A program made the position numbers and the translations under genes. From Ignavibacteriae bacterium HGW-Ignavibacteriae-1 (GTDB lineage: Bacteria > Bacteroidota > Ignavibacteria > Kapaibacteriales > UBA2268): a stretch of DNA of 64,000 bases. Below, piece after piece: positions 3,259 through 40,449 of the stretch; the first letter of the stretch is position 1, and every line of letters begins with the position of its first letter. A model generated the notes under the pieces. The model had not been told where the DNA came from, searched no databases, and saw only the letters and a list, made by a program, of their open reading frames with translations. The stretch is from contig PGYU01000008.1 in NCBI GenBank assembly GCA_002839825.1, positions 1-64,000 on the forward strand, read 5' to 3'.

Positions 3259-3613
3259 AAACTTGTATTAAAACTTAATGATTTTTTTTCAATTTTCAAA
3301 ATTAAAAGTCGAAAAATCCCACGAATCACTCCAAAAATCAATGAAATCTTGTATAATTTTTCAAAAATCTTCAGAAAAGCTAAAACTACATACTTTTATC
3401 CATATTATTATTCAATATAACATATTTTTTTTAATAATCACTAAGTTATTTCAAGTTGGATGGCATTATTATTTTTGAACAAAAGAAAAACTTCATCATA
3501 TAAGATATTTTAATCTGATTTAGGGAAAATGATGATAAATTGACTTCGATTAGCGATAAATTTCGTATTTTGCATAGTTGAAAGTTTTATTTTTTAAATT
3601 ATTAGGTATTAAA
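3259..3613. other. AT-rich divergent intergenic region
   Basis: About 355 bp separate the divergent nadE and the HmuY-like gene, so both promoters should lie here. A box TATTTTG at 3566-3572 has a TTG 23 bp upstream, which is a loose match to the Bacteroidota TTTG/TAnnTTTG pattern. No convincing gene, RNA or repeat was seen. Confidence 0.5.
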
Positions 3614-4912
3614 ATGAATAAGTATATACTAACATTATTGGCATTTGTTTTCATGACAAATTCAATTATATCAGAAACAACCGAACATACAGTAGTTTTA
3701 GGAAAAGATTACCAAAATGATGTGTGGTTCAGCTTAGAAAACGGTATTTTGGAAGGACAACAAAACAAGGACAACTGGGACTTGGCGTTTCAATCAGGTC
3801 AAAGAGCAGGAATACTTGTTAACGGACAAAAAGGGATGAAGATATGGGTCGTTCCGAATAGTAACGAAGATTCATTCGATAATCCGGTTGATACAACCGG
3901 AATGAGTGCAACATGGGAAACGGCGGTTAATTCGGAGGAATCATGGCACGTAGGTGCACTCAATCTTGGCAAAGACGGCTACATTACTGATGGCGATTTT
4001 GGTTGGGGATACTACGATTTATCAACTCACTACATTGTAGGCTCCAAAGTATTTATTATCAAAGTTACAAACAATTCGTACAAAAAATTCATGGTCGAAT
4101 CGTTGGCTTCAGGCGAATATTCGATTCGCTACTCAAATTTGAATGGTACTGATGAGACCATTGCAGTCATCAAAAAGAAAGATTATGCCGGACAAAATTA
4201 TGCATACTTTTCGTTTGCAACAAATTCGGCTCAAAGCCGCGAACCTCTGACTTATGATTGGGAATTGGTATTCGGGAAATATGAAAGTTTGATTCCAACA
4301 GGACCGGGTCAATTCATGGCTTATCCGGTGACCGGTGTTAAAAGTAACCTCGGAATTAGAGTTGCCGAATTGAAAGGCGTTGACCCAATTTCAGTTATGC
4401 CACCTGCAATTAATGATGACAATTATTCTGAAGTAATAACTACAATTGGCTCTGATTGGAAAACATTCAGCCAAGCCACAAATGAATATACAATACCAAC
4501 AGATTTGGCTTACTTTGTTTATAGACATTCGGAAGATGCACCTGAGTTAATCGTTTACAAGATTGTCTTCACAGAATTTTCAGGGTCTTCAGAAGGAATA
4601 ATCAAATTCGACTTCACTCCCTTAGCTGTAACATCAGTAGAAGATTTCCCCGGATTGTCATATGGCATACATCCTAATGTAATTGGTCAAAATGAATCGG
4701 TAAATTTTGTTTTGAATTATGACAGCTTACTCGAAAACATCAATGTTCAAATCATATCAATGGATGGTCGCGAAGTGATGAACAAACAGTTTACAACTCA
4801 ATCCGGTTTGAATGCATTTGATTTGGGAGCGATGAACGCACCATCAGGAATGTATTTAGTCGCCGTTACAATTGGAAATAAAGTCTATCACGATAAGATT
4901 ATCGTAAGATAA
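3614..4912 (+). CDS. HmuY-like secreted protein with type IX sorting domain
   Basis: This is a 432-residue exported protein. I take the ATG at 3614 rather than the one at 3578, because MNKYILTLLAFVFMTNS is a good signal peptide while the upstream extension is not conserved in style. The middle (NDVWFSLENG, NWDLAFQSG, GMKIWVVPN) resembles the HmuY family, surface haem-binding proteins of Bacteroidota, though haem ligands cannot be assigned by eye. The last about 80 residues form a type IX secretion sorting domain ending GMYLVAVTIGNKVYHDKIIVR, with an interior like VQIISMDGREVM. It therefore likely crosses the outer membrane through the Por system and is anchored or released outside. It stands alone between a divergent gene and a strong terminator. 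HmuY kinship is moderately certain; the sorting domain is near certain. Confidence 0.85.
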   Translation: MNKYILTLLAFVFMTNSIISETTEHTVVLGKDYQNDVWFSLENGILEGQQNKDNWDLAFQSGQRAGILVNGQKGMKIWVVPNSNEDSFDNPVDTTGMSATWETAVNSEESWHVGALNLGKDGYITDGDFGWGYYDLSTHYIVGSKVFIIKVTNNSYKKFMVESLASGEYSIRYSNLNGTDETIAVIKKKDYAGQNYAYFSFATNSAQSREPLTYDWELVFGKYESLIPTGPGQFMAYPVTGVKSNLGIRVAELKGVDPISVMPPAINDDNYSEVITTIGSDWKTFSQATNEYTIPTDLAYFVYRHSEDAPELIVYKIVFTEFSGSSEGIIKFDFTPLAVTSVEDFPGLSYGIHPNVIGQNESVNFVLNYDSLLENINVQIISMDGREVMNKQFTTQSGLNAFDLGAMNAPSGMYLVAVTIGNKVYHDKIIVR

Positions 4913-5082: not shown

Positions 5083-6492
5083 ATGAGGTTTGTGATGAAA
5101 ATAATTTTATTGCTTATTATTTCATTCTTGCTTACTGAACCACTCAATTCTCAAACTGTATGGGAAAAAGTTAATCCATTTATGGGGCAATTTGCCAGAT
5201 TTCAAGATGTCAGATGTTTTGATAATTTGAATTGTATAGGTATTGTTGAAAATACTGATACATGTTGCGATAGGATTGTTAAGACAACTGACGGTGGCAA
5301 AACTTGGTTTACTCATTATCATGAAAAAATATATACTGATGATACCGGTATGCCAATATTTCCAAATCCTATGTACATGAATTCCATAGATTATTTATCG
5401 GAAGACCATATTTATATTTCCCGAAGCAGAGGTAAATTATTTAAAAGTACAGATGGGGGAATTACTTTTGATACAATTCAAGTAGTTGAATCTATCGAGG
5501 GGAAAAACCCGAGCGGCCTTTATAGTTTAGATATGTATGATTCATTAGTAGGTGGGGCTATATCAAATTCACATCTTTATATAACTGATGATGGATGGAA
5601 AACTTCAAAAAACTTATCAATTGAAGCTGAATTTATACCGGATGATTATCAAATCATTGCGCATAGTTTCATTTATTCAGGTAAAAATCAAATAACTGTT
5701 TATTTCAGAGTTTCTAAAGAAATATCTAAAAACAATTATCATGTATTATATAAAGGACTTATCACCTCTATTAATAGTGGTGAAACATGGTATTTGAGAG
5801 ATATTCTCAAAGATTTCAATGCACGTTCAGTTCAAATTACTTCCTTGTTTTTCTTGGACTCAAAAATTGGCTGGGCTTCAGGTCAGGTTATATATGATAC
5901 TGATAATGGAGGTAGATTAACTCACGGACTTGTGTATAAAACATATGATAGTGGTATAACTTGGGACTTAATTCATGTTGACGAGACTGAACCAACATTT
6001 GGATTGTGGGACATTGCTTTTTATGATGAATTAAATGGAATTGTTGTTGGTAAATACGGGAAGTTATTACGTACAACAGATGGTGGTTATACTTGGTTCC
6101 GTGATGCTTTTTTGGACAACTATTCTCAAAACATGCGAGTAGTTCAGAAAATTGCATTTGCGGGAGAAAATCCAATTTTAAGTACATTTAGTGATGGTCT
6201 CTGGCGTGGCACATACACACCGTCGTCAGTAAATGAGAGCGCAGAAACGGTGAATGGGCTTTCCCTCTACCCCAATCCGGCATCGGAATATATTACAATT
6301 ACGAAACCTTCCGAAGGTTTCGAACCTTCGGAAGGTTCAGAAATCAAAATTTTCAATACGCTTGGCGAATGTGTTCTTAAAGAATCAATTCATCCGATGA
6401 CTCCCAGTCATCGGATGAATGTAGAATCTCTCCCTCGTGGTGTGTACTATCTCCGAATTGGAAATAGGACGCAGATGTTTGTGAAGATGTAG
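5083..6492 (+). CDS. Asp-box (BNR/YCF48-like) propeller protein with type IX sorting domain
   Basis: This is a 469-residue secreted protein with signal peptide MRFVMKIILLLIISFLL; an ATG at 5095 is an alternative start. At least five Asp-box motifs are visible (TTDGGKTWF, STDGGITFD, SINSGETWY, TYDSGITWD, TTDGGYTWF), as in sialidase/YCF48-type beta-propellers. No catalytic sialidase residues could be assigned, so an enzymatic role is unsupported. The C-terminus is a sorting domain (LSLYPNPASEYITI to GVYYLRIGNRTQMFVKM). Two 33-bp perfect hairpins lie in frame within this domain and add 11 codons each (see repeats at 6305-6337 and 6388-6420). A comparison with the related domain at 21299-22171 shows that they fall in loops between strands. 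Function outside the cell is unknown. Confidence 0.88.
   Translation: MRFVMKIILLLIISFLLTEPLNSQTVWEKVNPFMGQFARFQDVRCFDNLNCIGIVENTDTCCDRIVKTTDGGKTWFTHYHEKIYTDDTGMPIFPNPMYMNSIDYLSEDHIYISRSRGKLFKSTDGGITFDTIQVVESIEGKNPSGLYSLDMYDSLVGGAISNSHLYITDDGWKTSKNLSIEAEFIPDDYQIIAHSFIYSGKNQITVYFRVSKEISKNNYHVLYKGLITSINSGETWYLRDILKDFNARSVQITSLFFLDSKIGWASGQVIYDTDNGGRLTHGLVYKTYDSGITWDLIHVDETEPTFGLWDIAFYDELNGIVVGKYGKLLRTTDGGYTWFRDAFLDNYSQNMRVVQKIAFAGENPILSTFSDGLWRGTYTPSSVNESAETVNGLSLYPNPASEYITITKPSEGFEPSEGSEIKIFNTLGECVLKESIHPMTPSHRMNVESLPRGVYYLRIGNRTQMFVKM
6305..6337. repeat. In-frame 33-bp palindromic element A
   Basis: AACCTTCCGAAGGTT (6305-6319) and its exact reverse complement (6323-6337) are separated by the 3-nt loop TCG. 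It is a perfect 15-bp hairpin of 33 bp, a multiple of three. Each arm is itself nearly palindromic. It encodes the extra residues KPSEGFEPSEG in the sorting domain of the surrounding gene. Confidence 0.9.
6388..6420. repeat. In-frame 33-bp palindromic element B
   Basis: ATTCATCCGATGACT (6388-6402) and its exact reverse complement (6406-6420) are separated by the loop CCC. The geometry is the same as in element A (15-3-15, 33 bp, in frame) but the sequence is unrelated. It encodes IHPMTPSHRMN in the same sorting domain, 50 bp after element A. Confidence 0.9.
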
Positions 6493-21215: not shown

Positions 21216-21252
21216 AGGAAAAGGGAAGGTTTTGAAAGAAGTCGTTTAAGCA

Positions 21253-21288
21253 CATAACCCACGGTTGAAACCGTGGGCTATGTTTTTT
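21253..21288. terminator. Hairpin terminator after nuoK, GC-rich palindrome
   Basis: CATAACCCACGG / CCGTGGGCTATG (21253-21264, 21271-21282) form a 12-bp stem with one A-C mismatch and a 6-nt loop, followed by T6. It lies between convergent nuoK and the sorting-domain gene at 21299. The core CCCACGGTTGAAACCGTGGG may be a dispersed palindrome reused as terminator. Confidence 0.75.
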
Positions 21289-21298
21289 ATACGCCATC

Positions 21299-22171
21299 CT
21301 ATTCTTTTACAAACGGTAAGAAGCGATTGCCGATTTTGACGAAATAGGTGCCGGTAGTCAAATCGGATACATTAATTCTAACTTCATCGCCTGCAGAGAG
21401 GGTCGGAGTGAGGGATTTGATTTCTACTCCCAGCACGTTAAATATTTGCACCATAGAAGCTTCTGAAGGTATTGCTTCGATTGTGATATAATCTGATGTA
21501 GGATTTGGATAAATCATGAAGTTGTTGGCAAATGCATCATCAACTGATGCTTCGGTCAAGCATTGAACTTGAAGACTGATGGCATGTGCTGAACACATTT
21601 GCTCCATTTCGCCCTTTTCCATAATTGCTCCCCACATAGGGTCTCCATATTCAATGACAGGGATACCTCCGTTCAAAAACAAGGCTATCATAAAAACATC
21701 AGGTTCGAGTGCATAAAATTCTGAAAATGCAGCTGATGAACGAAAAGCAGCTGCCGCTTTGTCGCTATTTTCCCATGCAAAATCGTCTAAAGATTGCTCT
21801 AATTCTATCGGTAATCCACTGTCGAGAACTTCTGAGGCATCGAATTCTTCAATTATATATCCGCCGAGCATTGGTTTGAATACTACATAGCCGCGAAAAT
21901 CTGATCGCTCTTCATTTGTAAATATGTACATCCATAAGTCGCCCTTTCCGGTTGAAACATCAAATCTCATTTCGAGTGTTTGACCAAAAAATTCAACGTC
22001 TTGATTCACTGATGTTACAAAAATCAGTTCGGGAGCAACCATTCCGTCATCAATGACTCTTTCGCGAACAGAAGGAATCGGTTCGGTCGCGAGTTGTTTT
22101 TGCATAAATTGGCTTTCGGCTGTGTATGTTACTAAGAGTGCTAATAAACTTAGTATAATAAAATTTTTCAT
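21299..22171 (-). CDS. Secreted protein with type IX sorting domain, unknown function
   Basis: The 290-residue protein has signal peptide MKNFIILSLLALLVTYTAES and a C-terminal sorting domain from MIYPNPTSDYITIEA to GTYFVKIGNRFLPFVKE. The middle 200 residues contain no motif I recognise. The sorting domain is the closest in the window to that of the Asp-box protein at 5083-6492 (shared KIGNR/RIGNR ending) and serves as a reference without hairpin insertions. It lies divergent to the helicase gene. Confidence 0.8.
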   Translation of the reverse strand: MKNFIILSLLALLVTYTAESQFMQKQLATEPIPSVRERVIDDGMVAPELIFVTSVNQDVEFFGQTLEMRFDVSTGKGDLWMYIFTNEERSDFRGYVVFKPMLGGYIIEEFDASEVLDSGLPIELEQSLDDFAWENSDKAAAAFRSSAAFSEFYALEPDVFMIALFLNGGIPVIEYGDPMWGAIMEKGEMEQMCSAHAISLQVQCLTEASVDDAFANNFMIYPNPTSDYITIEAIPSEASMVQIFNVLGVEIKSLTPTLSAGDEVRINVSDLTTGTYFVKIGNRFLPFVKE

Positions 22172-39038: not shown

Positions 39039-39178
39039 ATTAAATTAACGTTCCGTCAGTTGTAATACCTGAAGGGATATAAAGATTGGATTACAGTTCC
39101 GTCAGTTGTAACAACTGACGGGACAAAATCACCGGGACAAAATCTTTCCAAAGGTGTAACACTTGACGGGACAAAAAA
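39006..39178. repeat. Hairpin array, copy 1
   Basis: This copy begins inside the last codons of the gene at 37629 and carries three hairpin units with a constant TAA loop: 39050-39078, 39096-39124 and 39143-39172. The central unit GTTCCGTCAGTTG-TAA-CAACTGACGGGAC is nearly perfect (13 bp, one T-G pair). The outer units are decayed. Copy 2 lies at 40272-40449, with a 67-bp identical block at 39079-39145. Confidence 0.9.
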
Positions 39179-40304: not shown

Positions 40305-40449
40305 ATTGGATTGAGGAAATCGTTCCGTCAGGTGTAATACCTGAAGGGACATAAAGATTGGATTACAGTTCCGTCAGTTGTAACAACTGACGGGACAAAA
40401 TCACCGGGACAAAATCTCTCCAAAGGTGTAACAACTGACGGGACAAAAA
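40272..40449. repeat. Hairpin array, copy 2
   Basis: Same order as copy 1, with a few substitutions and a short insertion near 40310. Units: 40322-40350 (GTTCCGTCAGGTG-TAA-TACCTGAAGGGAC), 40368-40396 and 40415-40444. All units have a TAA loop. Confidence 0.9.

Follow-up and report, generated by a model that had tools for sequence, protein, structure and literature searches.

REPINs have been described as inverted doublets of REP sequences that form a hairpin and are distributed in extragenic space, and segments of 71 and 110 bp were used in the simulation of that work (Bertels and Rainey 2011, PMC3116915). The GTAG- and CGTC-tagged REPs constitute two large super-families, which are located near the 3′ ends of ORFs, with some intragenic copies, many of them in genes of replication and repair, and CGTC repeats were reported from Chlorobi and Bacteroidetes (PMC3733652). 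Rickettsia palindromic elements (RPEs), with lengths of 105–146 bp, were found in 19 reading frames, many of them of conserved proteins (PMC2229807). In Porphyromonas gingivalis, rearrangement of domains and exchange of alleles have been reported for T9SS cargo; it is the adhesin modules that vary there, and the sorting domain is termed conserved (PMC5266723).

Palindromic repeats in frame are thus already known, but the cases described in the parts of these papers used here are scattered over many genes, and among the matches listed from the open-licence PubMed Central literature, none reports such repeats in T9SS sorting domains. Here, we describe a case from Ignavibacteriae bacterium HGW-Ignavibacteriae-1, starting from a stretch of 64,000 nucleotides of its genome (the window), in which one small domain with two sockets offers a natural experiment repeated in dozens of parallel copies, with unrelated palindromes in many combinations and orthologues of other contents. 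The system makes it possible to test the entry of REP-type repeats into coding sequence, hairpin-driven gene conversion, and the variation tolerated by a working secretion tag.

Two palindromes in one sorting domain

The C-terminus of the cargo gene studied (Table 1) passes the curated cut-offs for a T9SS type A sorting domain, with residues 395–467 matching Por_Secre_tail PF18962 (1.3e-12, 48.2 bits, cut-off 27) and residues 395–466 matching TIGR04183 (9.2e-9, 35.2 bits, cut-off 23) in the profile search. The domain is built on the frame LYPNPASEYITI-[A]-EIKIFNTLGEC-[B]-LPRGVYYLRIGNRTQMFVKM, in which A and B are two loops. By direct reading, the loop A palindrome (hairpin 1) is AACCTTCCGAAGGTT-TCG-AACCTTCGGAAGGTT and the loop B palindrome (hairpin 2) is ATTCATCCGATGACT-CCC-AGTCATCGGATGAAT, each a perfect 15-3-15 hairpin of 33 bp, and the two are in frame in the same ORF with a gap of 50 bp between them, exactly as an earlier note on this DNA had claimed. 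That note also called the palindromes unrelated, which holds for their sequences but not for their membership, since both belong to a set of repeat families occupying the same two loops in many genes. Its placement of the hairpins in loops of the domain agrees with the AlphaFold model of residues 381–469 (89 residues, mean pLDDT 82.3), with strands at model residues 23–27, 40–44, 50–55, 62–66, 73–79 and 82–88, in which hairpin 1 codes residues 28–39, a coil joining the first two strands, and hairpin 2 codes residues 56–66, a turn and the next strand. In Foldseek, the model matched best to mirolase 8qb1, a T9SS C-terminal domain (E 1.5e-3, TM 0.65), with none at E ≤ 0.001, and sequence-profile matches were obtained to 7pzj (1.7e-7) and 8qb1 (6.8e-5). 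The domain is predicted to have the Ig-like beta-sandwich fold of known T9SS C-terminal domains. No inverted repeat in the sorting domain of the neighboring HmuY-like gene was present in the inverted-repeat list of the window. A phage source was rejected, as the window gene was without a megablast match in the phage collection.

Table 1. Positions of the genes, the sorting domain and the palindromes of the window, with the basis of each assignment
Feature	Position	Strand	Basis
T9SS cargo gene, YCF48/BNR-like body and type A sorting domain, 469 aa	5083..6492	+	ORF; PF18962/TIGR04183/PF14870
Sorting domain, two-socket subfamily	6265..6489	+	Profile matches; subfamily frame; AlphaFold model and Foldseek
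Loop A palindrome, family A1, codes (K)PSEGFEPSEG	6305..6337	.	Exact hairpin; genome-wide family
Loop B palindrome, family B1, codes IHPMTPSHRMN	6388..6420	.	Exact hairpin; genome-wide family
Second T9SS gene, related sorting domain, loop A EAIPSEASM without palindrome	21299..22171	-	ORF; orthologue comparison
Intergenic REP-like palindrome, one mismatch	21252..21283	.	Inverted-repeat list; flank comparison
HmuY-like T9SS cargo gene, neighbor, comparison case	3578..4912	+	ORF; profile match

Repeat families, their distribution and their turnover

The genome contains at least 150 sorting domains (PF18962 matches; 150 of 216 candidates scored; all 150 read), and approximately 35 of them share the frame YIxI-[A]-xIKIFNTLGECV-[B]-RIDISHLPRGVYYxRIGxRTQMFVK, with loop A between the strands YITI and EIKIF and loop B after LGECV. 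Subfamily domains were collected by a regular expression on 190 candidate tails, which gave 33 domains (another expression gave 36, and some atypical ones lie outside the 33). A stem score of at least 10 was reached by 28/33 A loops and 21/33 B loops, compared with a stem of 10 in 1/274 control windows from gene bodies; 5/33 A loops and 12/33 B loops have a stem below 10. In 27/33 A loops and 19/33 B loops, the observed stem was reached by none of 200 synonymous-codon shuffles; the loops that fail this comparison include the B4 loops described below and a few empty ones. Since synonymous recoding destroys the pairing, the palindromy is a property of the DNA, and peptide-driven palindromy is rejected for most A loops and for over half of the B loops.

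A genome sample of 932,747 bp, picked to include all listed sorting domains, contained 89 perfect hairpins with arms of at least 12 and loops of at most 5, or 86 sites once overlaps are discounted, compared with 0 in one first-order Markov simulation, which is the excess over random that the earlier note had named as support for its reading. Sorting domains, which make up 3.6% of this sample, hold 42 of the 86 sites; a further 43 lie between ORFs and a single one falls in an ORF of another kind, ORFs (≥100 codons, simple rule) making up 90% of the sample. Because of the way the sample was picked, the ratio of 42 to 43 cannot be carried over to the whole genome, but the 42 to 1 within ORFs is robust, and perfect hairpins are nearly absent from the other ORFs of the sample. 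The 42 sites are spread over 28/150 sorting domains, with 122/150 free of a perfect hairpin, and do not represent 42 independent events as the domain copies are related. Allowing at most one mismatch, the hairpin-1 arm has 81 sites in the whole 3.23-Mb genome and the hairpin-2 arm has 36+29 = 65, with 0 for the reversed-pattern control in both cases. Chance palindromes are ruled out by these arm copy numbers and by the comparison with the Markov simulation. The whole hairpin-1 doublet is present in 24 copies in this genome and also in 9/59 other genomes searched, all 9 of which come from the 35 further genomes of its own family.

Loop A accommodates at least six kinds of repeats, namely A1 (PSEGFEPSEG), a REPIN-like doublet of AACCTTC[C/G]GAAGGTT, A2 (INPTVNRRVD from ATCAACCCTACGGTTAACCGTAGGGTTGAT), A3 (TSEVLETSEV), A4 (NKGLQPL), A5 (SPSNKRG), and a sixth seen in a single case (RWTPLSKWSPS from AGATGGACTCCACTTTGAAAGTGGAGTCCATCT). 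At least five kinds occur in loop B, namely B1, which is the hairpin-2 palindrome, B2 (VETRHAVSL from GTAGAGACACGGCATGCCGTGTCTCTAC), B3 (DVQHLGDVGHL), B4 (PSTGSGS), which is a poor hairpin, and B5 (TLSEGEG). The loop elements are 28–33 bp long and lengthen the loop by approximately 9–11 residues, with no stop in the frame used, and A1 combines with each of B1, B2, B3 and B4, as does A2. The B2 family carries a GTAG start and a CTAC end, A1, A2, A3, B1 and B3 are without a GTAG or CGTC tag, and a CCGTCAG..CTGACGG family is present outside sorting domains. The window also holds two copies of GTTCCGTCAGTTGT-N-ACAACTGACGGGAC (39096–39124 and 40368–40396; 13/14 paired), a REP-type palindrome containing CGTC.

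All copies of A2 proper (15/15) and all sample copies of B2 of the GTAGAGAC type (8/8) are located in sorting domains, and A1, A3, B1, B3 and B4 have copies also outside sorting domains in the 0.93-Mb sample. B4 is translated in two frames, as PSTGSG and as LRQAQG. The latter frame was seen in a sorting-domain remnant with an in-frame TAG (C28:46045–46203) and in a domain without a stop in the same-genus genome G002 (L335). Two adjacent sorting domains of G002 (L350, C13:56600–61300) contain half an A3 palindrome (QTSEVS), which is perhaps a one-arm intermediate or a deletion product.

Further domains were collected with the PNP-tail expression from 122 other loci (some of G001 and G034), giving 155 domains unique by DNA, of which 53 had a stem of at least 10 and 102 were without a strong stem. 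When the stem center was required to lie 12–22 residues before or 6–18 residues after the LGE motif, 43 of the 53 strong stems were in the A or B position, 3 were elsewhere and 7 were not placed. The same loop pattern was found in G034, an assembly of 6 contigs, and in other MAGs. Other related loci are labeled Candidatus Kapaibacterium, Ignavibacteria or Chloroherpeton. An identical 28-bp GTAG palindrome occupies loop A in one MAG (L246) and loop B in another (L226). The GTAG family kept its length and frame in 38 occurrences with 10 different perfect half-sites, in a list that is biased by its selection for at least 11/14 pairs. The occurrence of the same palindrome in both sockets, together with the two frames of B4, is best explained by repeated arrival.

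Orthologues were taken from two genomes of the same genus (G001 and G002), both draft assemblies, as reciprocal best hits on the N-terminal parts only; their domains were read from 20 and 25 stretches, respectively, among the matches listed of 28 and 34, and the family labels were assigned by hand-written peptide expressions. Among 21 pairs with N-terminal identities of 66–96% (two pairs below 60%, at 25% and 29%, were left out), loop A differs in 13 and loop B in 13, with one more B difference unclassified on both sides; 17 pairs differ in either loop and 4 agree in both. Plain vertical inheritance of one insertion is excluded by these differing contents. The window gene is A1/B1, its G002 orthologue (95% identical before the domain) is A1/B2, and its G001 orthologue (73%) is A2/B2; as the genes next to the window gene did not recur within 3–4 kb of the orthologues, this orthology rests on the reciprocal best hits of the N-terminal part. 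For the second T9SS gene of the window, loop A is empty in the window and filled with CCATACGGTTAACCGTATGG in the G002 orthologue, and the surrounding conserved segments are 86–100% identical. Empty orthologous sites, which the earlier note had also looked to for support, are represented by this one empty/filled pair with well-matching flanks.

Some swaps (pairs o28 and o1) lie between flanks that still match the orthologue, and in o28 loop A has changed from A5 to A2 between a start and a diagnostic tail that are both orthologous. The domain frame was at least as similar to the best same-genome paralogue as to the orthologue in 16/21 pairs, a count that leans towards paralogues because the best of up to 32 paralogues is set against one orthologue. 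Neither a target-site duplication nor movement was observed in the draft-genome orthologue comparison.

REP-like traits and the Y1 gene

Inverted pairs of the A1 15-mer occur 21 times at 18 bp and 4 times at 36–38 bp in the sample, those of B1 occur 6 times at 18–19 bp and 16 times at 64–68 bp, and AGACTTC[C/G]GAAGTCT pairs occur 7 times at 64–65 bp and once each at 34 and 45 bp. Two inverted REPs with characteristic spacing that form a hairpin, as in REPINs, are therefore found here. A1, B1 and the AGACTTC family are, like REPs, multi-copy short palindromes located mostly between genes near 3′ ends; A2 proper, with its copies exclusively in sorting domains, is not. The intergenic REPIN-like forms measure 79–83 bp, and those examined are open in 0–2 of 6 frames, compared with all three forward frames for the compact doublets A1, A3 and B3 and two for B1, which can explain why only the compact form is seen within genes.

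Rows of single A1 palindromes, mostly ~37 bp apart, were observed at C12:91321–91483 and C31:64–336, with adjacent arms of alternating orientation in the C12 row. In addition, four AGACTTC REPINs of 79 bp (C12:121415–121493, C26:13999–14077, C40:553577–553655 and C43:68598–68676) each follow the stop codon of a sorting-domain gene after the same short interval of 7 nt, which suggests either joint copying of the domain with its 3′ flank or targeting of this spot by the element.

A single Y1 (RAYT-like) transposase gene was found in the genome (C31:26142–26480; L066 1312–1869), with a weak match of 27.1 bits (cut-off 23), and it is bordered on both sides by AGACTTC[C/G]GAAGTCT (four and two REPs, respectively). 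The core CTTC[C/G]GAAG, with 96 sites in the sample vs 4 expected from base composition, is common to A1, A3 and the Y1-flanking REP, although the outer bases differ and only this 9-bp core is shared. A2 resembles the CCCACGGTT..AACCGTGGG repeats flanking both sides of a Y1 gene of G002, and the pattern CCACGGTT-N(0-4)-AACCGTGG has 19 occurrences in the genome of the window. The intergenic palindrome of Table 1, ACATAACCCACGGTT-GA-AACCGTGGGCTATGT, lies 15 bp past the 3′ end of the second T9SS gene and has a half-site resembling A2, and the CCCACGGTTGAAACCGTGGGCTATGTTT within it recurs unchanged in repeats that flank a Y1 gene of G002 on either side.

Exact A1, A3 or B3 flanks were found at 0/20 Y1 loci of relatives, and B1 was near 1/20, on one side only. 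G001 and G033 contain hairpin-1 doublets (3 and 26, respectively) yet gave no Y1 hit. RAYT presence as a full explanation is not supported, given doublets without Y1 in these two genomes and the missing exact flanks. In G002, a Y1 gene with its own repeat cluster (L374/L354, C5:268700–273400) lies ~600 bp from the sorting domain, with filled loop A, of the orthologue of the second T9SS gene.

Origin of the loop palindromes and comparison with known systems

Two sockets, interchangeable families, mixing of A with B repeats, in-frame placement and differing orthologues characterize the subfamily. We infer that the two sockets probably tolerate REPIN-like palindromes in frame and that these are probably reshuffled when domain copies recombine, so that the loops seem to serve as places where small repeat DNA can land and be swapped. 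The palindrome family using permissive loops of exported cargo, as the earlier note had read the two hairpins, is supported by the sample counts and by the two same-genus genomes. In this scheme, REP/REPIN-like families would reside between genes, mostly near gene 3′ ends, with compact 28–33-bp versions residing also in loops A and B of the C-terminal sorting domains of T9SS cargo. New palindromes could arrive via transposition of the REP/RAYT type, or via a comparable copy step that depends on the hairpin, and would survive only where frame and fold permit, and homologous recombination (gene conversion) among the ~35–40 similar domain copies could subsequently spread and reshuffle them. The sorting domain of T9SS cargo is normally cut away once the protein has been exported, and the repeat load may be tolerated because the domain is an address tag that is removed. 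For arrival by REP-type mobility the support is moderate, as the occurrence of A1, B1 and the Y1-flanking REP also between genes points to mobile elements. The confinement of A2 proper to sorting domains points instead to exchange between domains rather than to a dispersed mobile element in its case, and gene conversion between domains is suggested by their sequence similarity.

It is unlikely that all palindromes are old residents and that the mosaic derives solely from the C-terminal domain being duplicated and its copies undergoing gene conversion, with no insertion today. Such a history would be in accordance with the confinement of A2 proper and of the GTAGAGAC type of B2 to sorting domains, and with the 16 pairs whose frames resemble a paralogue at least as closely as the orthologue. 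Nevertheless, it is at odds with the copies of A1, A3, B1, B3 and B4 outside sorting domains, with a palindrome shared by both sockets, with a repeat translated in two frames, and with the empty/filled pair. At similarly low probability, the loops might be dedicated recombination sockets, in which cruciforms or hairpins of the palindromes provoke breaks that are repaired from other sorting-domain copies, so that the export tags are continually rewritten. If this were true, it would represent a self-propagating cassette exchange in coding sequence that spreads through T9SS cargo genes.

The hairpins might alternatively be kept for an RNA function, with 3′-end stem-loops protecting the message or tuning T9SS gene expression and any hairpin being sufficient, which we regard as quite unlikely. 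The mRNA segment does fold far better than its shuffles (z -5.7; 0/200 shuffles as good), 39/43 intergenic hairpin sites are nearest an ORF 3′ end, some of them looking like ordinary terminators, and the GTAG palindromes have their different perfect half-sites, albeit from the list biased by selection for pairing. However, several subfamily domains are without a hairpin in one or both loops, and the hairpin position follows the protein fold. That loop variation is selected because it alters recognition or attachment of the exported protein seems highly improbable; turnover and combinatorial mixing at two loops would fit such diversification of an exposed surface, but the sorting domain is normally removed after export and palindromy at the DNA level would have no obvious role. 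It is least credible of all that gene bodies were attached to wrong copies of a repeated domain when short metagenome reads were assembled, since, although the window genome and the two orthologue genomes are drafts and the domain is repeated ~35–40 times, the longest exact tract shared between domains (33 domains, 528 pairs; median 18 bp, 95th percentile 48, maximum 75) is shorter than a typical read even at its maximum, the same pattern occurs in the 6-contig G034 and other MAGs, and the o28 and o1 swaps lie between flanks still matching the orthologue.

The reading of tolerated and reshuffled REPIN-like palindromes also implies caution, as tag loops such as PSEGFEPSEG or IHPMTPSHRMN may resemble conserved motifs and yet be translated repeat DNA. 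Compared with the T9SS cargo of Porphyromonas gingivalis, recombination between modules of exported proteins would be a common feature, but the palindromic variation here is in the sorting domain, and palindromes are not mentioned in the part of that source used here (PMC5266723).

The analogy with RPEs drawn in the earlier note is apt as a mode of action, with palindromic repeats both between genes and in frame within protein genes, and absent from some orthologues (PMC2229807). The elements thus work like RPEs but are not classed as such, since they measure 28–33 bp instead of 105–146 bp, the named relatives of their host genome are mostly Bacteroidota-type MAGs instead of Rickettsia, and, unlike in the portion of the RPE paper drawn on, several unrelated palindromes are interchangeable in two loops of one domain family. 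They look closer to REPs and REPINs. With the GTAG REPs they share the GTAG start and CTAC end of B2 and sites near ORF 3′ ends, but the coding copies here are concentrated in one secretion-tag domain, and sorting domains go unmentioned in the sections of that work at hand (PMC3733652). With the REPIN/RAYT system, as far as the source passages describe it, they share inverted doublets of short REPs, the hairpin and a single-copy Y1 gene flanked by REPs, which here have only the core in common with A1 and A3, with intergenic units of 79–83 bp here; unlike REPINs, the compact doublets sit in frame in one protein domain, where several families use the same two sockets and the contents of these sockets vary between orthologues (PMC3116915).
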